The notes under the pieces are model-generated. The model worked only from the letters and a program-made list of their open reading frames with translations, was not told where the DNA came from and did no database searches. A program made the translations under genes and the position numbers. Positions 3,900 to 30,963 of a DNA stretch of 64,000 nt are shown here, piece after piece. Position 1 is the stretch's first letter. Each line of letters opens with the position of its first letter. Origin of the DNA: Acidisoma sp. L85 (GTDB taxonomy: Bacteria > Pseudomonadota > Alphaproteobacteria > Acetobacterales > Acetobacteraceae); assembly GCF_009765865.1 (NCBI RefSeq), contig NZ_LMUQ01000073.1:9608-73607 (forward strand), written 5' to 3'.

Positions 3900-4787
3900 T
3901 CAGACCCCGGAAAGCGCCTTCAAGGTCCGGTCGCGCGCCGCCGTGTCCCCGGCCGTGTGGACCGGCTGGACGCAGACATGGGTGGCCCCGGCCTCGAAAT
4001 GCGCGTGCAACCCGCGGGTGATGGTTGGCGCATCGCCCCACAGGACCATCGAATCGATGAAACGGTCCGTGCCACCGTCGGCGAGGTCGGCTTCCGTGAA
4101 CCCCATCCGCAGCCAGTTGTTGCGATAGTTGGTCAGAGTCAGGTAGGGCTTCAGCTCCTGCCGGCCGAGCTTTCGGGCTGTCGCCGCGTCGGTCTCGAGG
4201 CAGACCTTTTGCTCCACGGCCAGCCACTTGTCCGGCCCGAGCACCGCTTTCGCCGCTCGGGTATGCTCGGGCGTCACGTTGTAAGGAACGGCGCCCAGCG
4301 TCCGCTCTCCGGCGAGCTTGAGCATCAGCGGACCCAGCGCCGCCAGTACCACCGGCCAATCCTCGCTGCCCGGCTGATCCTGGTAGAGGCCATCCAGATA
4401 GCGCCGCATGGTGGGCACCGGCTTATCATAGGCATGGCCGCGCAACGCTTCCACCAAGGGCACGTGGCTCACGCCAAGGCCGAGAATGAACCGGTCACCA
4501 TAAAGCTTTGACAAGGTGAGAAGGCCGCGCCGAGCCGCGAAGGCGTCGCGCGCATAGATATTGGCAATGGAGCTCCCTATCATCAATCGCTTGGTATTCG
4601 CGAGCATGAAGCTCGCAACCGACAGCGATTCGTAACCGAACGCCTCAGGATACCAGAAGGTCGCATAACCGAGTTCTTCGACCGTTTCGATCAGGTTCGT
4701 GATCTCCTGGCCGTCCAGACGATCAATCGGATACCAAACGCCGAGCCGGCCCATCTGCCTCAAGATTCCACCCTCCAATTGCGTCAC
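3900..4787 (-). CDS. LLM-class F420-dependent oxidoreductase (TIGR03620-like)
   Basis: Luciferase-like monooxygenase fold: GRLGVWYPIDRLDG at the start, the LGYATFWYPEAFGYE segment, IGSSIANIYARDAF and the GDRFILGLGVSHVPLVE strand. These match the subfamily usually annotated as F420-dependent. About 295 residues from a GTG at 4787. A TTG at 4763 lies 7-8 bases after GGAGGG and an ATG at 4754 also fits, so the true start may be 8 or 11 codons later. It probably uses reduced F420 as hydride donor on an unknown substrate. The divergent neighbour is FO synthase, and the two share a 113-base control region with a direct repeat, so co-regulation with F420 synthesis is likely. Confidence 0.85.
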   Translation of the reverse strand: MTQLEGGILRQMGRLGVWYPIDRLDGQEITNLIETVEELGYATFWYPEAFGYESLSVASFMLANTKRLMIGSSIANIYARDAFAARRGLLTLSKLYGDRFILGLGVSHVPLVEALRGHAYDKPVPTMRRYLDGLYQDQPGSEDWPVVLAALGPLMLKLAGERTLGAVPYNVTPEHTRAAKAVLGPDKWLAVEQKVCLETDAATARKLGRQELKPYLTLTNYRNNWLRMGFTEADLADGGTDRFIDSMVLWGDAPTITRGLHAHFEAGATHVCVQPVHTAGDTAARDRTLKALSGV

Positions 4788-4900: not shown

Positions 4901-7270
4901 ATGACCGTAACGAATGATTCGGCGCTGACACAGTGGTTGCTTGATGCGCCGCTGATGGAGCTGATGCCGCGAGCGGAGCGTTCCCGTGACGAGGGCCATG
5001 GCCGACTGATGTCGTATTCGCGGAAAGTGTTCATTCCGCTCACACATTTATGCCGCGATGTCTGCCACTACTGCACTTTTGCCCAACGGCCGCGTGCTGG
5101 GAAGGCGGCGTATCTCTCGCCCGATGATGTGCTTTCGATAGCACGGGCCGGGGCTGCCGCCGGTTGCACGGAAGCGCTGTTCACGCTCGGGGACAAGCCT
5201 GAGCTGCGTTATCACGCCGCAAGGGACGCGCTCGCCGCGCTTGGGCATGAAACGACAATTGGCTACCTGGAGGCGATGTGCGCGCTGGTTCTGCGGGAAA
5301 CCGGGCTGCTGCCGCACGCCAATCCGGGGCTGATGAGCCGGGAGGAAATAGCCGGGCTGCGCACGGTTACAGCGAGTCAGGGCATCATGCTGGAGTCCCT
5401 GAGCGAGCGGCTATGCGAGCCGGGCGGGGTTCACTATGGTTCGCCTGACAAACGGCCGCAATTGCGGCTCGACACGCTGCGGCTGGCGGGAGAGTTGCAG
5501 GTCCCGTTCACGACCGGAATCCTGATCGGTATCGGAGAGACGAGGCGGGAGCGGCTGGACGCGCTATGCGCCATCCGCGAGATCCATGCGGAGTACGGTC
5601 ACGTCCAGGAAGTTATCGTCCAGAATTTCCGTGCGAAACCTGGCACCAAACGCGCCAACGCCGCTGAGCCGGATTTGGATGACCTACTTTGGACCGTCGC
5701 TGCTGCTCGGCTAATTCTCGGTTCGGAGATGAATATCCAGGCGCCTCCCAATCTCTCGCCGGGCGTGTTTCCGCGGCTGATCGCGGCGGGGATCAATGAT
5801 TGGGGTGGCGTTTCCCCGGTGACTCCGGATCACGTCAATCCGGAGGCGCCATGGCCTGCTATCGTCGAACTCGCTCGACAAACCGCTGACGCCGGCAAGC
5901 TGCTGGTCAATCGGCTGCCCGTTTACCCGTCCTATGCGCGATCATCCGAGATCTGGCTGGCGCCTGAGGTTGCGAGCCGGGTGCTCCGTATGAGCGACGC
6001 CGAGGGCCTCGCGCGCGATGATGATTGGGCGCCCGGCAGCCTGGTGTCGCCGCGGATGCCCGCGATCCTCGCGCGTTCCGTCGATCCGGCTGTGGATAGG
6101 ATCATCGCCAAGGCCGTGGGTGGCGACCGCCTCGAAGAGCCTGAGATCGTGCGGCTTTTCGCAACACGCGATGCCGATTTTGAGCGCGTCACGTTTGCGG
6201 CGGATGAATTGCGCCAAGCGGTGAGTGGCGACACCATCCGGTACGTTGTCAACCGCAACATCAACTACACCAACATCTGCTACTATCGTTGCCAGTTCTG
6301 CGCATTTTCGAAAGGCAAAAAGCATGAGGCGCTGCGGGGCGCGCCCTATGATCTTGCGCTTGAGGAGATCGTGCGCCGCGCTGTGGAAGCGTGGGACCGG
6401 GGCGCCACAGAACTTTGCCTGCAGGGTGGTATCCACCCCGAGTACACGGGCGAGACCTATCTCGGCATATGCCGGGCCATAAAGACAGCCGTTCCCGGTA
6501 TGCATATTCACGCATTTTCGCCGCTTGAGGTCACTCAGGGCGCGGCTACGCTCGGACTATCCGTCCGCTCGTTTCTTGCGGCGCTGAAGACAGCTGGTTT
6601 GGGAACCTTGCCGGGCACGGCAGCGGAAATCCTGGATGACGAAGTGCGTGCGAAGATCTGCCCGGACAAGCTGACGACGGCCGAGTGGCTCGATGTGGCC
6701 CGCGCGGCGCATGGTCTCGGGCTGCGAACGACGTCAACGATCATGTATGGGCATCTGGAGCAATCCTCTTCCTGGGCCAAGCACCTTCTCGCGCTGCGTG
6801 ATTTGCAGAAGGAGACCGGCGGCTTCACCGAATTCGTTCCTTTGCCGTTCGTGCATATGGAAGCGCCGATGTATCTGCGTGGCCGCGCTCGGCGCGGGCC
6901 GACGTTTCGCGAAGCGGTATTGATGCACGCAGTGGCGCGCCTGACCTTGCACCCGGGGATCACGAATATTCAAACATCCTGGGTCAAGATGGGGCCTCAA
7001 GGGGCGGCGGCCTGTCTGAAGGCGGGGGCCAATGACCTCGGCGGCACGCTGATGAACGAGAGCATTTCCCGCGCGGCTGGTACCGAGCACGGTCAGGAAT
7101 TTCCACCCGAGGCGATGGAGCAATTGATCCGCTCTCTCGGGCGCCAGCCTGAACAGCGCAGCACTTCGTATGGTCCGGTTATGACGGAACGTCGCCAAGC
7201 ATCGATGCGTGCGGCCGTGCTGGCTCCAGTTATATTGACGCCGCCGCGGAAGCTTGCGGTGGTGGGATAG
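4901..7270 (+). CDS. fbiC: FO synthase, fused CofG-CofH radical SAM enzyme
   Basis: This makes 7,8-didemethyl-8-hydroxy-5-deazariboflavin (FO), the chromophore of coenzyme F420, from tyrosine and 5-amino-6-ribitylaminouracil. It has 789 residues and two radical SAM halves. The N-terminal CofG half has its cluster cysteines at 51, 55 and 58 (CRDVCHYC); the CofH half has them at 460, 464 and 467 (CYYRCQFC). Fusion is the arrangement of actinobacteria, whereas archaea keep two genes. Start ATG 4901 follows GAAGGTGACAGGCG. The stop is only three bases from the stop of the convergent cofC, so one locus holds the whole pathway. Identification is firm. Confidence 0.97.
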   Translation: MTVTNDSALTQWLLDAPLMELMPRAERSRDEGHGRLMSYSRKVFIPLTHLCRDVCHYCTFAQRPRAGKAAYLSPDDVLSIARAGAAAGCTEALFTLGDKPELRYHAARDALAALGHETTIGYLEAMCALVLRETGLLPHANPGLMSREEIAGLRTVTASQGIMLESLSERLCEPGGVHYGSPDKRPQLRLDTLRLAGELQVPFTTGILIGIGETRRERLDALCAIREIHAEYGHVQEVIVQNFRAKPGTKRANAAEPDLDDLLWTVAAARLILGSEMNIQAPPNLSPGVFPRLIAAGINDWGGVSPVTPDHVNPEAPWPAIVELARQTADAGKLLVNRLPVYPSYARSSEIWLAPEVASRVLRMSDAEGLARDDDWAPGSLVSPRMPAILARSVDPAVDRIIAKAVGGDRLEEPEIVRLFATRDADFERVTFAADELRQAVSGDTIRYVVNRNINYTNICYYRCQFCAFSKGKKHEALRGAPYDLALEEIVRRAVEAWDRGATELCLQGGIHPEYTGETYLGICRAIKTAVPGMHIHAFSPLEVTQGAATLGLSVRSFLAALKTAGLGTLPGTAAEILDDEVRAKICPDKLTTAEWLDVARAAHGLGLRTTSTIMYGHLEQSSSWAKHLLALRDLQKETGGFTEFVPLPFVHMEAPMYLRGRARRGPTFREAVLMHAVARLTLHPGITNIQTSWVKMGPQGAAACLKAGANDLGGTLMNESISRAAGTEHGQEFPPEAMEQLIRSLGRQPEQRSTSYGPVMTERRQASMRAAVLAPVILTPPRKLAVVG

Positions 7271-7273
7271 CCC

Positions 7274-7957
7274 TTACCGGGCTGCCGTGGCCTCGGCCAG
7301 GAGTTCGCCCGCGATCCCGGATTGCTCCAGAAAGGCGAGTGTCCGGGTGGGTATGCGAGGCGACATTTGTAGGAACGCCAAGAGATCGGCGGGGTGGTCG
7401 ATATCCATGGCGATCCCCGGCTGATGAAGGATCGACGGCGCGATTCCGGCGCGTCGTGCGGCGTCCAGATGCGGGAAGAAGCTGTCCTCTCCAAAACGAA
7501 AGGGAACTGCATCCGGCGGTGAGCAGATGATCGCGTTGGATCCCAACTCGTCATGTGCCGGCACGATCGTAAAGGCAGGAGCGGATTTGTGAGCGGCCAA
7601 AGCGGCCGTCACCTCGGACGCCTGAATGCGTGGAATGTCGCCCGGCAGGGTGATCATGCCGTCGAGACGTTCCCGGGCTAGAAGCCGCGCTGCCGATGTG
7701 ACAGCGCCCGTATGCCCGTCGCGCGCCCCGTCAGTCACGACCCGCGCGCCGTAACGTTCGGCGAGCGATCTCGCAAGCGGATCGATGGTGACAACCACTA
7801 TCCCGGCGAGCTGGGGCACCGTGGCCAGAGTGTGAAGCACATCCTCGACCATGATCGCGGCGAGCGACTGACGCTGCTGGGGCGAGAGGCGAGGGGTCAG
7901 TCGCTGCTTGGCGCCTGAGAACTCCTTGATGGGCACGACTGCCCAAATCCCACTCAT
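7274..7957 (-). CDS. cofC: CofC, phospholactate/PEP guanylyltransferase of F420 synthesis
   Basis: CofC (FbiD) activates a three-carbon phosphate (2-phospholactate, phosphoenolpyruvate or 3-phosphoglycerate, depending on lineage) with GTP. 227 residues with a nucleotidyltransferase fold: VVPIKEFSGAKQRL at residues 7-20, the metal-binding LPGDIP strand near 104, LGSNAIICSPPD, and the closing GIAMDIDHPADL. The start overlaps the stop of cofD in an ATGA. It is the last gene of the fgd-cofE-cofD-cofC operon. Which three-carbon substrate is used cannot be settled from motifs alone. Confidence 0.93.
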   Translation of the reverse strand: MSGIWAVVPIKEFSGAKQRLTPRLSPQQRQSLAAIMVEDVLHTLATVPQLAGIVVVTIDPLARSLAERYGARVVTDGARDGHTGAVTSAARLLARERLDGMITLPGDIPRIQASEVTAALAAHKSAPAFTIVPAHDELGSNAIICSPPDAVPFRFGEDSFFPHLDAARRAGIAPSILHQPGIAMDIDHPADLLAFLQMSPRIPTRTLAFLEQSGIAGELLAEATAAR

Positions 7958-8925
7958 GATGAAGGTGCTCGGCGGCGTCTGGCGGGCGGGACCGCATCGG
8001 CCGCATCGAGAACCACGCGCGCCAAGACCTCGCGATCCGCGAGGCTAGTCATCAACGTCGGGGCGAGGGTGACGATTGGGGACAATCCTTCAGCTTCCCC
8101 GGCGTCTCCGACATCCATGACGTAGGCATCCAGGAGATCGCCATAGCGCGCGGCAACAGCCGCAGCGCTTGGCTGAAGTCCAAGCTCGGTCATCATCTTG
8201 GCTGTCGGCCCTTTGACCGCGCGGCCGCCAATGATCGGCGACACCGCGACGACAGGCGCAGGGCACGCCGAAAGCGCTTGGCGCACACCCGGCACCGCCA
8301 GGATAGGCTCGACGCTGATGAACGGGTTGGATGGGCAGATAATGACCGCGCGTAACCGTGCGCTGCTTAGGGCCTCGAGCAAGTCCGGATGCGCCAGGGC
8401 GCTCTCCGCCCCCGCGAACACAAGCTCTCGCACCGTCGGGCGGCATTGCAGGCGCACGAAATAGTCCTGGAAATCCAGCCAACCCTCATCCGTGTGCAGT
8501 CGGGTGCGAACCGGGTCGTCGGTCATGGGAAGAACGCGAGGATGGACCCCGAGGCGACGGCAGAACTCGCTTGTAATCTCCGCCAGCGTCTGGCCAAGGC
8601 GCAGTCTCCGCGTTCGTTCGACATGCACGGCCAGATCGCGATCCCCGAGCCGGAACCAGTCCTCTCCGCCGAGCGCGGTCAGAGTTTCCATGAACGACCA
8701 GCTCTCGTCCCGTCGACCCCAGCCGAGCTCCGTATTGTCCAAGCCGGCGAGCGTGTACATGAGCGTGTCGATATCGGGCGAGACATGCAGGCCCAGGTGT
8801 TCGAAGTCGTCGCCCGTATTGGCGACGACGAGCAGATTCTCGGCTGGAAGGATGCGGCTTAAACCCAAAGCAAGTTTCGCGCCGCCGATGCCGCCTGATA
8901 GCGCGACCACGAGATCCCGTGTCAC
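7954..8925 (-). CDS. cofD: CofD, 2-phospholactate (or PEP) transferase forming F420-0
   Basis: CofD (FbiA) moves the phospho-acid unit from the guanylylated donor made by CofC onto FO, giving F420-0 or its dehydro form. 323 residues. The N-terminal LSGGIGGAKLALGLSRIL loop and NTGDDFEHLGLHVSPDIDTLMYTL segment are diagnostic, as is SPIIGGRAVKGPTAKMM near residue 215. It overlaps cofE upstream and cofC downstream by four bases each, so all three are likely made in fixed proportion. Confidence 0.96.
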   Translation of the reverse strand: MTRDLVVALSGGIGGAKLALGLSRILPAENLLVVANTGDDFEHLGLHVSPDIDTLMYTLAGLDNTELGWGRRDESWSFMETLTALGGEDWFRLGDRDLAVHVERTRRLRLGQTLAEITSEFCRRLGVHPRVLPMTDDPVRTRLHTDEGWLDFQDYFVRLQCRPTVRELVFAGAESALAHPDLLEALSSARLRAVIICPSNPFISVEPILAVPGVRQALSACPAPVVAVSPIIGGRAVKGPTAKMMTELGLQPSAAAVAARYGDLLDAYVMDVGDAGEAEGLSPIVTLAPTLMTSLADREVLARVVLDAADAVPPARRRRAPSS

Positions 8926-9686
8926 CGGAACAGATCCTCCTCGGGCGGACGTAGGATCGCGGCCGCCGTAGAATGATCGGCTGACCAGCGCAGTCCGCGA
9001 ACCAGAACAACTGGCAGCCCCTCATCCGCTTGGCCCATCAGCAGCGAGGCGGCGGAAGCGATTTCGTCGGCAAAGCCTATGATGCTGGCCTCAAGCTTTC
9101 GATCGAAGAGGTCTGGTTGTCCGCGTAGATCGAGTATCGCAGGCAGCCCCGCAACGCCGATCGCGACACCTGCGGTTCCTTGCCGCCAAGGCCGTCCAAA
9201 ACTGTCGTTGATGATCACCGCGACGTCTACGCCCGTCAGCGTGGCCAGGCGACGCCGCAGATGCTCGGCACTTCGGTCAGGATCCTCGGGCAGCAGCAGC
9301 GCGTATTGGCCCGCGCCCGCCGGTGCGACATTTGACTGATCCACGCCGCCATTCGCCATGATGTGGCCGAGCCGGTGTTCAACGATCAATACGCCGGGCC
9401 GGTTGCGAACTACGCGCACAGATTCGGAAAGGATGACCTCCACGAGCCTCGGGTCCTTTCGGATCTCCGAGGCCAGCGCGATCGCGCGCGCCGAGGGTTC
9501 GATTGTCGCCAGATCGATTATTCGACCTTCGGCCTTCGAGACGATCTTTTGCGCCACGACCAGCACGTCTCCGGCGCACAGCATTATATCGCTCGACGCA
9601 AGGGCGGACGCCACCAAGTCGCTTAAATCGTCGCCACTCTTAACCTTCGGAAGGCCTCGTAGCGCAACAATCTCTAGGCCGATCAT
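8922..9686 (-). CDS. cofE: CofE, coenzyme F420-0:L-glutamate ligase (stand-alone)
   Basis: CofE adds L-glutamate residues to F420-0 using GTP. 254 residues, matching archaeal CofE and the N-terminal half of actinobacterial FbiB. Visible signatures: [19 protein letters not shown] at the start, [13 protein letters not shown] near residue 44, and [21 protein letters not shown] near residue 160. The C-terminal FMN reductase domain of FbiB is absent here, and no such gene was seen elsewhere in the window. Overlaps fgd upstream and cofD downstream by four bases. Confidence 0.96.
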
Positions 9687-10714
9687 GCGCCCGTTGTGTT
9701 TTCGCCCGATCCGCCAAAGCGGCGGCGGAGGCGGGGGAGTATTTGCTCGGAATACAGCCGGATAAACCGCTCCTGGTCCGGACCCGGCGCATGAAAGACC
9801 AAATGTTCGAAGCCTAGGTCTACATAATAGCTGATTCGCTCGACGTGCTCATCCGGGTCATTGGAGACGATCCAACGGCTGGCGGCTCGCTCCGCCGAGA
9901 GACCGGCGGCGAGACGTTCCATTTCATCGGGATTTTCGACCGAGACTTTTTCTTCTGGCGTTAAGGCGAGAACCGCCCAGTGCCGGGTATCTTGCAGTGC
10001 ACGGTCCCTATCCGCATCGAACGAGACCTTGATCTCGATCATCCGCGCGTAGTCTGGGCGTTTTGATTCCGCCTCGCTCAGTCCTTCGGCGACCTTCGGC
10101 AATAATGTCTCGGTGTAGAGTTCCCGCGCTTTGCCGCTGGTGCAGATCAACCCGTCACCAACCCGGCCGGCATATTTGGCGATGAGGGCGCCAGCCGCCG
10201 CGACATAGATCGGCACCGGGGTCGCGGGCCGGTCGTAGATGGTGGCACTCTGGGTGCGATAGAATTGACCCTCGAAGGTCAGCCGCTCCTCGGTCCAGAG
10301 GCGACGGATCAGCGTGACGGCTTCACGCAGGCGCGCGAACCGTTCCTTGAAGTCAGGCCACGCCATGCCCGTGGAAGGCACTTCGTTAAGTGACTCGCCG
10401 GTGCCGATGCCAAGCACAATCCGCCCCGGGAACATCACGCCGAGTGTTGCAAAAGCCTGCGCCACAACCGCGGGATGATAACGGAAGGTCGGAGTCATTA
10501 CGCTGGTGCCGATGGTGATGCGCGACGTCCGCGCACCCAATGCGCCTAGCCAGGCGAGCGAGAAAGGCGCGTGGCCGTCGTGATGCTTCCATGGCTGGAA
10601 GTGGTCACTAACAAAGACAGAGTCGAAGCCTGCTTTTTCCGCAAGGCAAGCGAAGTCGAGCAGCTCCACAGGGCCAAACTGCTCCGCCGACGCCTTGTAT
10701 CCTAGTCTCAGCAC
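9683..10714 (-). CDS. fgd: F420-dependent glucose-6-phosphate dehydrogenase-like protein
   Basis: LLM-fold enzyme closely resembling mycobacterial FGD1, which reduces F420 with glucose-6-phosphate. Opening [65 protein letters not shown] and HLVFHAPG are all FGD-like. From the GTG at 10714 (343 residues; GGAGAG lies six bases upstream) the expected active-site residues are H38, W42, E107 and phosphate-binding K195, K256 and R280. The position of FGD1 His260 is Val257 here. An upstream TTG at 10738 has no good ribosome site. First gene of the F420 operon, so it probably supplies reduced F420. Exact sugar-phosphate specificity is unproven. Confidence 0.88.
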
Positions 10715-10795
10715 GAGCCACTCTCCAACATCTTGCAATCGCTCGCCGAACCGCCAGCACGATTAACCAGCGGCCGCCCTAGACGACTGGTCGCC

Positions 10796-11194
10796 TCAGC
10801 CCATTACCTGAGTGGCGCCAGGTTCGATTTCGAAGGTGACCCGCACTTCGCCCGGCTGGCCGAAGGGATACTTGTCTTTCCCCAAATACTTCTTGGCGAG
10901 TGAATCGATATGCGCGTCGGCGCCTTCCTCGGTCACCCGTGAGACCCGTCCGCGGATCTGAATGTAGCGATAGGCATTTTCGGGGTCGAGTATCGAAAGT
11001 GCAACCGGCGATCCTTCCTGCATATTGCGAGACTTCACGCGGCCCTTAGCCGAGTTTACGCGGATTTTTCCATTAGTGTAGTCGAACCAGACAGGGGTCA
11101 CCTGCGGCGATCCGTCCTTCATGATCGTTGCGAGATGCGCGAAGGAAGTTTTCTGCTGAAGCAAATCAAGATACTCTGCTGGAATTGCTACCAT
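10796..11194 (-). CDS. PPOX-class F420-dependent oxidoreductase
   Basis: 132-residue split beta-barrel protein of the pyridoxamine-phosphate-oxidase fold, of the kind usually annotated as TIGR03618/FDOR-B and linked to F420 binding. TSFAHLATIMKDGSPQVTPVWFDYTNGKIRVNSAKGR at the N-terminal half and RGRVSRVTEEGADAHIDSLAKKYLG later fit the family. The ATG at 11194 follows AAAGAGGC; the open frame further upstream to 11341 encodes no conserved sequence. It sits 80 bases upstream of fgd on the same strand, supporting F420 as its cofactor. Substrate unknown. Confidence 0.85.
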   Translation of the reverse strand: MVAIPAEYLDLLQQKTSFAHLATIMKDGSPQVTPVWFDYTNGKIRVNSAKGRVKSRNMQEGSPVALSILDPENAYRYIQIRGRVSRVTEEGADAHIDSLAKKYLGKDKYPFGQPGEVRVTFEIEPGATQVMG

Positions 11195-27018: not shown

Positions 27019-27687
27019 TCAGAGTTTTGGCAGTGTGCCGATACGGAGGATTTTGATGGCGGCGACGGCTGCGCCAAAGCCGTTGTCGATATTGACCGTA
27101 AGAACGCCAGGCGCGCAGCTTGCCAAGGCCGAACTCAACGCGGCACGTCCTTTCGCCGAAACGCCGTAGCCAACGGAGGAGGGGAGGGCGATGACCGGCG
27201 CCTCTACCAGACCGGCAACCACGCTGAAAAGCGCGCCTTCCATTCCAGCCACGACGATCAGAACGCGCGCCGCGCGTAATGCTCCGAGATGCGCCATAAG
27301 GCGCCAGAGCCCGGCGACGCCGACATCGACGATGAGAGGCGCCGCATAGCCATGGAAGGCGAGGGTGCGCGCCGCTTCCTTCGCTACGCTTAAATCCGCG
27401 GTTCCAGCGGCGACCACCAGCGCTCCGCCGGTCAGCGAGTCTTCGGGCGCCAAGGCCCCGAGGATCGCGGTGCTCGAGATAGGGTCATAATCGAGCCGCG
27501 TCAGTACCGGCGCGGGCAAGGCCTTGACTTGGCCCGGGCGAAGTCGGGTCAGCAGTAGACGGCGATCGTCCCGGATTGCCAGGTTGGCGATTGCTGCAAT
27601 CTGCTCGTCCGTCTTGCCGACACACAGGACAGCCTCTGCAGTGCCTGTTCTGCTTTCGCGCTCCCAGTCGAATTGGAAGTTGCTCAT
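27019..27687 (-). CDS. larB: LarB, nicotinic acid adenine dinucleotide carboxylase/hydrolase
   Basis: LarB carboxylates the nicotinate ring of NaAD and releases P2CMN, the first step of nickel-pincer nucleotide synthesis. 222 residues with the PurE/AIR-carboxylase-like C-terminal half: LVVAAGTADLSVAKEAARTL, VDVGVAGLWRL, VLIVVAGMEGALFSVVAGLVEAPVIALPSSVGYG. The start overlaps the larE stop in ATGA. Last gene of the larA-C-E-B order. Confidence 0.94.
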   Translation of the reverse strand: MSNFQFDWERESRTGTAEAVLCVGKTDEQIAAIANLAIRDDRRLLLTRLRPGQVKALPAPVLTRLDYDPISSTAILGALAPEDSLTGGALVVAAGTADLSVAKEAARTLAFHGYAAPLIVDVGVAGLWRLMAHLGALRAARVLIVVAGMEGALFSVVAGLVEAPVIALPSSVGYGVSAKGRAALSSALASCAPGVLTVNIDNGFGAAVAAIKILRIGTLPKL

Positions 27688-28460
27688 CGCCCCGTATGCA
27701 GAAAGGCGGAGCCGCGCCGGTAGCGCCGCAGGCCAGCGAAGATGCGACCCTGCTCTGCGCAGAGATTGCGTGCCGTCGCGATCAGTTCTTCGGCGTGCTC
27801 AGTATCGCTGGCCTCGATGACGACGCCGGTATGGGTGATGCGGCAGCGCAGGTCGGCGCCTCGCGGCACTTTTGGAAAGAGGCGGCGCTCCATTGCGTCA
27901 ATAAAGGCGAGATCCTCGGCCTCGATCGCGAGACCTGTCTCCACGCGGCTGGAAAGGCAGGGAGCGGCGGGCAGTTCCGAGAGATCGTCGAGCCCGAATT
28001 GGCGCGCGAGGCGGCGCACCGCCTGCTTGTCCATGCCAGCCACGATATAGGGGTGCACCACGGCGTGCTCGGCGGCGGCCTGCAGTCCGGGGCGGTAGTC
28101 TAAGAGATCGTCCAGGTTGGCGCCGGAGGCGATGGGTGCCGTCGTCACCTGGGAGATTCGTCCGTAGAGATTGGTTTTGCAGAAATAGCAGCGGTTGACA
28201 GGGTTCGCGCGGTAGGCGGGATCGTCGAATTCGCCTGCGTCCACCAGGCGTAACTTCCACCCGTTGCGCGCGGCATGGGCACGCACGCGCTCGGTTGCGT
28301 GGCTGGGAACGGCCGGGGAGATTGCGTGGACCACCACCAACTCGGCTATGCCCAGCAGATGGGCCGCATGGGCCAGGGTCATGCTGTCCACCCCGCCGCT
28401 GACGGCTATGGCGAGGCGAGGATAGCGGCCGAGCACGGTGTCAAGCGTCGGCTGGGTCAT
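27684..28460 (-). CDS. larE: LarE, sulfur transferase of nickel-pincer synthesis
   Basis: LarE converts the pincer carboxylates to thiocarboxylates. 258 residues: PP-loop SGGVDSMTLAHAAHLL near residue 21, then C91 and C94 in RCYFCKTNLYG and C168 in PCLSSRV. Some LarE proteins sacrifice one cysteine as sulfur source, whereas others use three cysteines to hold an iron-sulfur cluster; the three cysteines visible here favour the second type, by inference. Overlaps larC and larB by four bases each. Confidence 0.93.
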   Translation of the reverse strand: MTQPTLDTVLGRYPRLAIAVSGGVDSMTLAHAAHLLGIAELVVVHAISPAVPSHATERVRAHAARNGWKLRLVDAGEFDDPAYRANPVNRCYFCKTNLYGRISQVTTAPIASGANLDDLLDYRPGLQAAAEHAVVHPYIVAGMDKQAVRRLARQFGLDDLSELPAAPCLSSRVETGLAIEAEDLAFIDAMERRLFPKVPRGADLRCRITHTGVVIEASDTEHAEELIATARNLCAEQGRIFAGLRRYRRGSAFLHTGR

Positions 28461-29647
28461 TCTGCTTCCTCAGCCTGTCGCTTGGCGGCGCGTCGAGACT
28501 CCAGCCCTTCGATTTCGGCGAGGTCGTCGCTCTCCGCCTTGCGGCTATCGCCAGCCGGGCGGATGGCGGTCTTGACCCTGACATTTGGCGCCTTCGCCGT
28601 GCCCAGTTCTCGCGCCAGCACCATGCGCCGCTCCTGCCGCCATCGTAGACCGATCGTGGAGGTTTCAGTGAAGCAGGCGGCAGCAACGCTTGCCTGATCG
28701 TCGAAGCGTAGGAGCAACCGGAAGGCATGGACGGGCCGGCCCTTCTTTCCCAAAGCGGAGAGAACTACGAGGTCCCGCACGCCCGCGAGCTGGCGCAACC
28801 GTTCGGCCGCCACCCCGATCTCCTCGCCAGTCATATCGTCGATGTCGAAGCTCAGGACAAGGATGTCCTCAGTTCCGATAGTGAAATCCGAGGCTGGGCC
28901 GGCCACTTCATCGAAGATGGTGACTCGCAGGACGTTCGGTTGCCCGGGCAGATCGCGCGTGCCTGCACCGGTGCCGCTCGCGCGCAAGCGGCCTGCAGCA
29001 GGAGCCGTGGCGTTCGCGACCAGATGGCGAAGGATGGCCGCCCCCGTCGGTGTGACCCGTTCGCCGCTAATCCCATCGTCGCGCCAAGTGAAGCCCTGGA
29101 GCAGCCGGGTGGTGGCGGGGGCCGGCACTGGCAATAGGCCATGCTGAGTTCGCACAAGGCCTCCGCCGCGTGGCAAGTCAGAGACGGTCCAGCGGGCTGC
29201 CGGCAAGGCGGCGGCGATGCTGCCGGCGGCAACCACATCCATCAGCGAGTCCCAGTCGCCGATCTCGTGGAAATGAACGTCACCGAGCGGCACGCCGTGG
29301 ATTGCGGCCTCGGCTTCTGCGAGATGGCGGAGGATTGCGATGGCTTCAGGAGCCGTGCCGCTCGCGAGGGCGGTATCCTCGATCCGCGCGACCATGCCGA
29401 GAAAGCCAGCGTGCGCGTGATCTCCGTCAGTCTGTTGGGTGGCGCCGGAGAGGCGGAAGCGCAAACAGCGGAGGCCGCCGCTTGTGCCACTGTCCAACAA
29501 TGGCGTACCCGCCCCTGGTGGCAGCACGGCGGCTGCGTCAGCCAGCGCCCGGTCCCGCAACTCCGGCAGGGCGTCGATCATGGCGGCCACGAACATGTCG
29601 CCGGCCATGCCGCCGACCGCATCGAGCTGAATGGTGGTCGTAGTCAA
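28457..29647 (-). CDS. larC: LarC, nickel insertion cyclometallase
   Basis: LarC uses CTP to insert nickel into the pincer ligand, forming the Ni-C bond. 396 residues in one uninterrupted frame, whereas some lactobacilli need a frameshift to make the full protein. Start IQLDAVGGMAGDMFVAAMIDALPEL, the HFHEIGDWDSLMDVVAAGSI segment (near residue 125) and DIDDMTGEEIGVAAERL near 267 are characteristic. The C-terminus is rich in charged residues (about the last 30). Overlaps larA by four bases. Confidence 0.95.
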   Translation of the reverse strand: MTTTTIQLDAVGGMAGDMFVAAMIDALPELRDRALADAAAVLPPGAGTPLLDSGTSGGLRCLRFRLSGATQQTDGDHAHAGFLGMVARIEDTALASGTAPEAIAILRHLAEAEAAIHGVPLGDVHFHEIGDWDSLMDVVAAGSIAAALPAARWTVSDLPRGGGLVRTQHGLLPVPAPATTRLLQGFTWRDDGISGERVTPTGAAILRHLVANATAPAAGRLRASGTGAGTRDLPGQPNVLRVTIFDEVAGPASDFTIGTEDILVLSFDIDDMTGEEIGVAAERLRQLAGVRDLVVLSALGKKGRPVHAFRLLLRFDDQASVAAACFTETSTIGLRWRQERRMVLARELGTAKAPNVRVKTAIRPAGDSRKAESDDLAEIEGLESRRAAKRQAEEAE

Positions 29648-30963
29648 GGCGTGAGGTGGCCATCCGCCAGGGATGGCGCATAGACGGGGACGAGGTAAGG
29701 CCCTTCGGGAACAAAGGCGACGTGCTCGTCAGCGTGACGCGCGATGCTTTGCCGGAGGGCCGCATCGATGTTCGTGGCTATGACAACACCTGTGATGCGC
29801 TGTTCCTCGGCATCGAGTCCGGTCGTGTAGAGCTCCACACTGCCGAGGCGTGTTGCCTTCAGCTGCATCTCGGTTTGCCATTCATCGATTTCGGCAAGGG
29901 ATTTTGCCGTCAGCGTGGCAAGGAAACGCTCGGACCCCAGGGCGACCAGACGTTCCTGCGCGGCGCGGAATTCATGTGAGCCGAAACCCTCCGAACACGC
30001 AGAGGCGATGATGAGCGTGCCACCGGGGGCGAGTATGTCGAGCGGCGTCACCATGCCTTTGATCGTCTGGTAATAGGTTTTGTCCAGGGGATAGCCGGCC
30101 GATGAGGTGACGACGGTCTTGTAGCGACGGGGTACCTCGATGCGGGTCGCGGTCTTGACGAAATCGACGGCGGCCATGTGGCTCGCGATGATCTCGCCGA
30201 AAGTGACGCAGACGAGGTCGCGATCCTCGTCGAGCACAGTGTTGAGGGCGTAGATCTCGCCCAGGCGTTCGACGATCTGCAATTGCTCCTCATGGAGCGG
30301 GTTGCCTACGAGATTGCATTGGATGGCCAAAGGATCTTCCATGAAGCGGGCCGAGTGGAAGGTCCGGATCGTTTCGTGGTGGGCGACGCCCGGTGCCACC
30401 ACCTTGCGGCCGCCGGACCATCCCGCCATGAAATGTGGCTCGACGAGGCCGGTTGCGATACGCAGGTCAGCCTCGACGAAGCGGCGGTCTATCTTGATCG
30501 GTGTACCACGGGTCTTGGTGACGCCGAGATCGACATGGGCCCCCTCATCGCGGGCGAAGTGGTTTTCGACACGGACTTCGGCCATGACCCAGGGGTCGCC
30601 GACGAGTTCGGCGAGTTCCTCGCCTTCGTTGGGGCGATGCAGGCCAGTCGCGACCAGAACGGTGATCGCGTCCAGCGGAATGCCTTCCTCAACCATCGTC
30701 TCGATCATAGGGCGAAGAAAGAGCTGGTTAGGCACTGGGCGTGTGATATCGCAGATCAAAATGCAGGCACTGCGTCGCCCGCGTGCGAGGACACGGAGCG
30801 ATGGGGAGCCGATTGGCGCGTTCAGGGCTTGGCGGATGGCCGCCGGTCCGTCCGAGAGTTTGGGGAGCACGCCTTTGCGGATGATCGTCGCCTTGGCGCC
30901 TTCGGGCAGATTGACCGGCAGATGGCCTTTCCCGAAGAGGAGTTGGATCGTTTCGCCTGCCAT
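29644..30963 (-). CDS. larA: LarA, nickel-dependent lactate racemase or 2-hydroxyacid racemase
   Basis: LarA interconverts the enantiomers of a 2-hydroxyacid using the nickel-pincer cofactor bound through a lysine. 439 residues. The expected ligands are present: H109 (GLHRP), H177 and K187 (EPHFMAGWSGGRKVVAPGVA) and H203 (FHSARF). First gene of the operon; the upstream 269 bases hold its promoter. The family includes racemases for lactate and for bulkier hydroxyacids, so the true substrate is open. Confidence 0.93.
   Translation of the reverse strand: MAGETIQLLFGKGHLPVNLPEGAKATIIRKGVLPKLSDGPAAIRQALNAPIGSPSLRVLARGRRSACILICDITRPVPNQLFLRPMIETMVEEGIPLDAITVLVATGLHRPNEGEELAELVGDPWVMAEVRVENHFARDEGAHVDLGVTKTRGTPIKIDRRFVEADLRIATGLVEPHFMAGWSGGRKVVAPGVAHHETIRTFHSARFMEDPLAIQCNLVGNPLHEEQLQIVERLGEIYALNTVLDEDRDLVCVTFGEIIASHMAAVDFVKTATRIEVPRRYKTVVTSSAGYPLDKTYYQTIKGMVTPLDILAPGGTLIIASACSEGFGSHEFRAAQERLVALGSERFLATLTAKSLAEIDEWQTEMQLKATRLGSVELYTTGLDAEEQRITGVVIATNIDAALRQSIARHADEHVAFVPEGPYLVPVYAPSLADGHLTP

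Follow-up and report, generated by a model that had tools for sequence, protein, structure and literature searches.

Mycobacteria build coenzyme F420 with FbiA, FbiB, FbiC and FbiD and, in the available text of one report, charge it with Fgd (FGD1), an F420-dependent glucose-6-phosphate (G6P) dehydrogenase, rather than with Fno (PMC8498797); a dehydro-F420 reductase domain is described as part of their FbiB (PMC6450877, accessible part). According to the same portion of PMC8498797, F420 production by Alphaproteobacteria has already been published, for two species and in trace amounts. Here we analysed a stretch of 64,000 nucleotides from Acidisoma sp. L85 (Acetobacteraceae; contig NZ_LMUQ01000073.1, positions 9,608 to 73,607), hereafter the window, in which fbiC, cofC, cofD, cofE and an fgd gene form a compact F420 locus predicted to be charged, as in mycobacteria, by FGD and equipped with a CofE that has, in contrast to FbiB, a single domain (Table 1). 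The results described below indicated that this locus is very probably a functional F420 module in a member of the Acetobacteraceae and one representative of a class-wide cassette whose reducing gene is exchangeable.

The gene identities and their order, as judged from the sequence, agreed with the first-pass annotation of this DNA. All five genes were found as open reading frames (ORFs) at the places given for them, and CofGH, CofC, CofD, CofE and FGD all scored above the NCBIfam equivalog cut-offs; on a second model (NF009809) CofE remained below the cut-off (265 vs 274 bits). The ORF coordinates also confirmed the three 4-base overlaps (7954-7957 for cofC/cofD, 8922-8925 for cofD/cofE and 9683-9686 for cofE/fgd) and the convergence of fbiC and cofC with stops 3 bases apart, and the ORF calls allow an alternative TTG start of fgd at 10738. 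Such a combination of joint equivalog scores and layout is far above chance, and the proposed coupling of F420 synthesis with FGD in one operon-like block of a proteobacterium was supported. Both radical S-adenosylmethionine motifs of FbiC, CRDVCHYC and CYYRCQFC, are present, with CxxxCxxC at residues 51 and 460, and cofD gave a single match in a profile search of the genome (6.4 Mb, 85 contigs, 99.5% complete). In CofE, Pfam identified the F420_ligase domain only, without the C-terminal nitroreductase domain of FbiB, and the protein resembles archaeal CofE structures. Solved relatives were 5lxe and 3b4y (FGD1), 3c3d and 6uvx (CofD/FbiA), 2phn (CofE), and 7p97 and 6bwg (CofC/FbiD). Promoter and terminator scans returned fewer sites than in shuffled sequence, and Rfam and tRNA scans of the DNA found nothing.

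On these assignments, FbiC would make FO from tyrosine and 5-amino-6-ribitylaminouracil, CofC would activate a three-carbon acid, namely 2-phospholactate (2-PL) or phosphoenolpyruvate (PEP) rather than 3-phosphoglycerate (3-PG), CofD would couple the activated acid to FO, and CofE would add glutamates. FGD would then reduce the finished cofactor with G6P, and the resulting F420H2 would be spent by luciferase-like monooxygenase (LLM)-class enzymes, perhaps by the PPOX protein too. From the gene assignments we infer these activities, the electron source in vivo and the co-transcription of the block. Across the class, the cassette would take the form [npdG or fgd]-cofE-cofD-cofC with fbiC alongside, the one F420-reducing gene probably being swapped to give an NADPH-fed Fno in most lineages and a G6P-fed FGD in that of the window. 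The earlier description of the locus as a self-contained F420 redox module appeared mostly right, and the notable background and the probable gain by transfer attached to it proved weaker than claimed.

The exchange of the reducing gene was assessed in a family sample of 100 genomes, including that of the window, and in a class sample of 240 alphaproteobacterial genomes, in which cofD was counted above its cut-off (26 and 38 genomes, respectively); two genomes with lower-scoring matches, G129 (19 bits) and G162 (136 bits, at a contig edge), were not counted. Above the cut-offs, the 26 cofD-positive genomes of the family comprised 24 with fgd and 2 with npdG, none having both or neither, and the 38 of the class comprised 7 with fgd and 30 with npdG (28 full and 2 truncated at contig ends), no genome having both genes and one having neither (G106, in which cofE extends past the start of the contig). 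The union of the samples thus contained 63 cofD-positive alphaproteobacterial genomes, 30 with fgd, 32 with npdG (2 truncated), none with both and one with neither. Every fgd-positive and every npdG-positive genome of the class sample is cofD-positive, and in the family sample one assembly (G078) has fgd at an extreme contig end and no cofD. Full-length npdG scored 171-217 bits in the class sample, where the next untruncated match reached 85 bits, and fgd scored 457-499 bits in the family sample, followed by a match of 228 bits; in the window's own genome, 26 of 40 first-look candidates were scored, and none of these matched npdG. If the genomes were independent, the chance of zero overlap in the class sample would be 6e-7. 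In its distribution fgd resembles a plug-in alternating with npdG, and the two never occurred together in the sampled genomes. The literature found, judged by title and abstract, does not describe this either/or rule, and the pattern is new here.

The two genes also tend to share one place. In the family sample, 21 of the 24 fgd genes and both npdG genes occupy a slot upstream of cofE, on the strand of cofD and 0.75-1.4 kb upstream of it, with space for cofE, and the remaining three fgd genes lie on other contigs. The corresponding slot of the class sample holds 4 of the 7 fgd genes and 25 of the 30 npdG genes; the exceptions are fgd inverted relative to cofD in G164 and G177 or on another contig in G115, and npdG downstream in G179 and G191 or on other contigs in three genomes. 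A tree of CofD, CofE and FbiC required a minimum of six switches between fgd and npdG in both samplings, that is, in a first tree of 33 of the 80 loci fetched by FGD similarity (see below) plus other loci, and in a thinned tree, from which 20 more of the FGD-fetched loci as well as long-branch and split-cofG/cofH rows, actinobacteria among them, had been removed; the rows L160 and L171 were labelled fgd although the gene lies on another contig of the respective genome. A single fgd clade was rejected by the approximately unbiased (AU) test (p-AU 2e-69), which was carried out with the tree already known and with a constrained group defined by gene, not by tree. The clearest swap pair was G164 (L159) and G191 (L169), sisters at 100/100, in which a reversed fgd in the former and npdG in the latter occupy the same position between fbiC and cofE. 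Natural swaps of this kind between closely related operons make the rule testable, and, as far as the pattern in the sampled sequences holds, it would mean that alphaproteobacterial F420 is fed from either NADPH or G6P through the choice of one plug-in gene.

Several points weigh against this interpretation. The sampled genomes are related, so that the value of 6e-7 overstates their independence, and some fgd genomes contain npdG-like matches below the cut-off, the best with 58.5 bits (G094). For many genomes, scoring was confined to the highest-ranking first-look candidates (11 of 40 and 8 of 13 for the window's genome in the class searches), and the class search for fgd listed matches with E <= 1e-60 only, which a truncated fgd would escape. 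The genome encodes three zwf genes, so FGD would be a parallel entry for G6P rather than the sole G6P dehydrogenase. The F420 reported for the class in the available text of PMC8498797 consists of trace amounts in two alphaproteobacteria, and, with no close dehydro-F420 reductase found, the cofactor may remain unsaturated or owe its saturation to another enzyme.

Table 1. Predicted genes of the F420 locus and its flanks in the window, with profile scores against the respective cut-offs.
Feature	Position	Strand	Assignment and score
LLM-class oxidoreductase, putative F420-dependent	3900..4787	-	TIGR03620 family, 290 bits vs cut-off 220; divergent from fbiC
fbiC (fused CofG-CofH, FO synthase)	4901..7270	+	Two predicted radical-SAM centres; NF006687, 1135 bits vs 1018
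cofC (guanylyltransferase)	7274..7957	-	Putative 2-PL/PEP type by diagnostic residue (Gly, not Ser/Thr); TIGR03552, 137 bits vs 105
cofD (predicted transfer of activated C3 acid to FO)	7954..8925	-	TIGR01819, 299.5 bits vs 257.45
cofE (single-domain F420:gamma-glutamyl ligase)	8922..9686	-	TIGR01916, 287 bits vs 181
fgd	9683..10714	-	TIGR03554, 484 bits vs 420
PPOX-class putative F420-dependent oxidoreductase	10796..11194	-	TIGR03618, 100.7 bits vs 79

The special proteobacterial setting suggested for the locus was not borne out, given the F420 production published for the class and the recurrence of the block across Alphaproteobacteria. Relatives of the FGD found in named genomes numbered 339, of which the 80 kept (72-81% identity) were all labelled proteobacterial and nearly all alphaproteobacterial. 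In 68 of these 80 loci fgd, cofE, cofD and cofC lie on one strand, with fbiC converging on cofC in 46 of the 68; being selected by FGD similarity, the 80 loci are uninformative on how often cofD accompanies fgd. Acetobacteraceae, Reyranellaceae and Bradyrhizobium all contain further copies of the fgd-cofE-cofD-cofC block, and Roseomonas, Belnapia, Dankookia, Reyranella, Vineibacter and Bradyrhizobium share the gene order and strands of the window together with a convergent fbiC. The window differs from these fgd-type loci in its LLM gene, which lies beyond fbiC and not upstream of fgd, and in the PPOX gene preceding fgd. The clusters on Sinorhizobium meliloti pSymA, Agrobacterium rubi pW2_73_1, Aromatoleum EbN1 plasmid 2 and Paraburkholderia PPGU19_p3 have the same core of cofE, cofD, cofC and fused fbiC, in the order npdG-cofE-cofD-cofC in three of the four; in contrast to the window, npdG (NADPH-fed Fno) takes the place of the G6P-fed fgd, and fbiC is on the same strand instead of convergent. 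The window's locus is thus one more alphaproteobacterial F420 cluster, with a gene set common among its relatives. As a separate observation, the proteobacterial F420 clusters L113-L118, L120 and L121 lie on plasmids, several of them typed conjugative, and some are near transposase or recombinase genes.

The locus had further been regarded as probably gained by transfer. CofD of the window shares 35-43% identity with its counterparts on actinobacterial plasmids and 41-59% with those on proteobacterial plasmids, and full-length alphaproteobacterial relatives reach 74%; the closest relative, L028, shows 82% over the 179 residues present on its contig. A CofD tree, although a quick one with long outgroup branches, placed the window among alphaproteobacteria and not actinobacteria, as did the first CofD, CofE and FbiC tree, and the thinned tree, which includes no actinobacteria, assigned it to a 16-row alphaproteobacterial fgd clade at 100/100. 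Together with the CofE lacking the C-terminal domain of FbiB and the ordinary GC content (0.61-0.65 in the core genes against 0.617 in the window; PPOX lower, 0.546), these results make it extremely improbable that an actinobacterium recently donated the cassette as a whole, even though the FGD shares 57-61% identity with FGD encoded on Nocardia and Rhodococcus plasmids and cofD is missing from four of the five genus genomes. The sampling of actinobacteria was sparse, and in that first CofD, CofE and FbiC tree the long branch of Nocardia was placed within proteobacterial rows; a direct actinobacterial source is nonetheless unlikely. Since only one of the five genus genomes has cofD, gain inside the class is possible, and we considered a gain within Alphaproteobacteria by the species of the window and vertical descent with loss in its congeners about equally probable. 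The enzymology would be the same either way. The patchy occurrence of cofD within genus and family (26 of 100 family genomes) and the cof clusters on plasmids, some typed conjugative, in other Proteobacteria speak for the gain, against which stand the lack of a mobile-element gene among the neighbouring ORFs scanned and of a break in GC content.

With respect to the electron donor, the best solved match of the FGD was Rhodococcus FGD1 (Rh-FGD1, 461 bits), and the closest named relative was that of an Acetobacteraceae metagenome-assembled genome. In line with the family assignment, other genomes of the window's family encode CofD proteins identical to those of named Acetobacteraceae or Belnapia records. 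K195, K256 and R280 align with K198, K259 and R283 of M. tuberculosis FGD1, given as its phosphate-pocket residues in the accessible part of PMC5352752, and the phosphate pocket is thus kept. F420-dependent sugar-6-phosphate dehydrogenases (FSDs) of broader range share these residues, as far as the text available from PMC6279831 goes, so the residues cannot separate an FSD from an FGD. The score of 484 bits, above the cut-off of the TIGR03554 equivalog, and the best match to Rh-FGD1 nevertheless argue for a genuine FGD, and we regard a broader FSD as improbable. The FGD tree contained no characterised FSD, and it gave no donor for fgd, as its backbone was unresolved and its outgroup too distant.

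The first-pass annotation had called the F420 locus complete, which holds for the five genes but calls for a caveat at the saturation step. In the accessible part of PMC8764529, CofC enzymes are described as using 2-PL, PEP or, in Mycetohabitans, 3-PG. If PEP is the substrate, the resulting dehydro-F420 has to be saturated by a reductase. The operon could dispense with such an enzyme if it made 3PG-F420 as in Mycetohabitans, in line with the lack of a close dehydro-F420 reductase and with the 3-PG enzyme 7p97 as the nearest solved CofC. This seems very unlikely, because the position of the diagnostic Mycetohabitans S162 is occupied by Gly in the window and by Gly (91) or Ala (2) in all 93 aligned loci (rows with coverage below 80% or below 60 bits excluded), not by the Ser/Thr associated with 3PG-F420. 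The available text of the same report moreover states that 2-PL was the preferred substrate of the CofC enzymes from Paracoccus denitrificans and Oligotropha carboxidovorans, and that the only non-Mycetohabitans CofC of that assay with some acceptance of 3-PG came from Ca. Entotheonella (Hasan et al., PMC8764529). At the substrate-pocket position of FbiD Leu92, His replaces Leu or Met in the window and in 72 of the 93 loci, and Leu is found in 13. The window's CofC has the motif GHTG in place of GLN, and this lineage-specific pocket (GHTG, His) may accompany a different choice of acid.

We also looked for dehydro-F420 reductases. In the window's genome, the best match to the FbiB-domain model TIGR03553 reached 56 bits against a cut-off of 249.55, and this protein was ruled out as the reductase, as it is BluB (263 bits). 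Such weak matches of BluB (G000:C14; L150:2245-2916, + strand) to the FbiB C-terminal domain could mislead automated reductase searches. Thermomicrobia possess a dehydro-F420 reductase of the nitroreductase kind (PMC8764529, accessible part). The cofD and cofC genes of Thermomicrobium roseum are adjacent, as in the window, and the second gene after cofC encodes a nitroreductase-family protein, which from its position is probably that reductase and for which no close counterpart was found for the window. Against the 100 family genomes, the T. roseum enzyme gave weak matches (best 71 bits), the top four in cofD-negative genomes. BLAST of the enzyme against the fetched loci returned itself, Nocardia FbiB, loci fetched with nitroreductase queries, and L177 (G265, npdG type), in which a nitroreductase-like protein with a 32% match is encoded about 3.3 kb after cofD (L177:11009-11767, - strand); its best NCBIfam match was BluB, below the cut-off, and its FbiB-domain score was 55 bits. 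In seven npdG-type plasmid clusters, the annotation listed around cofD, which is incomplete, contains no nitroreductase. The sensitivity of these searches is limited, since even the T. roseum enzyme reaches no more than 163 bits on TIGR03553; in Paenarthrobacter, a gene annotated as a nitroreductase lies beside cofD and was recognised neither by any NCBIfam model nor by BLAST with the Thermomicrobium query, so that a divergent reductase could escape both yardsticks as well. As far as the sequences searched can tell, close relatives of the known dehydro-F420 reductases appear to be lacking, and a divergent enzyme could be missed. We tentatively propose, as a rather doubtful generalization, that Alphaproteobacteria have a modular F420 system whose sole input gene is exchangeable and which includes no described dehydro-F420 reductase. 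The cofactor would then be either unsaturated dehydro-F420 or saturated by an enzyme not yet described, with the co-located TIGR03620 LLM as one candidate. The either/or rule and this saturation step are the most useful outcomes of the analysis, and the identity of the proteobacterial cofactor is a concrete question for F420 production in Gram-negative hosts.

Regarding the users of the cofactor, the genome contains 22 Bac_luciferase matches, which include FGD and the LLM of the window, and not all of these proteins are necessarily F420 users. The two flanking genes proposed as partners of the module fared differently. An ortholog of the TIGR03620 LLM (at least 50% identity) occurs in 37 of the 49 loci whose sequence covers 6 kb or more upstream of fgd, which makes it a frequent neighbour, and a homolog of the PPOX protein occurs in one of 80 related loci, that of the closest relative L028 (79% identity), so that its claim is weak; the PPOX gene is possibly the first of the transcript and is not a conserved neighbour. 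In a GC-filtered clustering of neighbours, examined for a possible reductase, the clusters besides the cassette genes occurred in 57, 39 and 19 of 81 sources, LLM-like by eye, and the others in at most 15; of these clusters only the 39-source one, which holds the window's LLM, is tied to a family.

Apart from the F420 locus, the window carries a nickel-pincer cofactor cluster at 27019-30963 (- strand), the genes of which are joined by 4-base overlaps; larB, larE and larC scored above the cut-offs, and a LarA-family racemase scored below the equivalog cut-offs.

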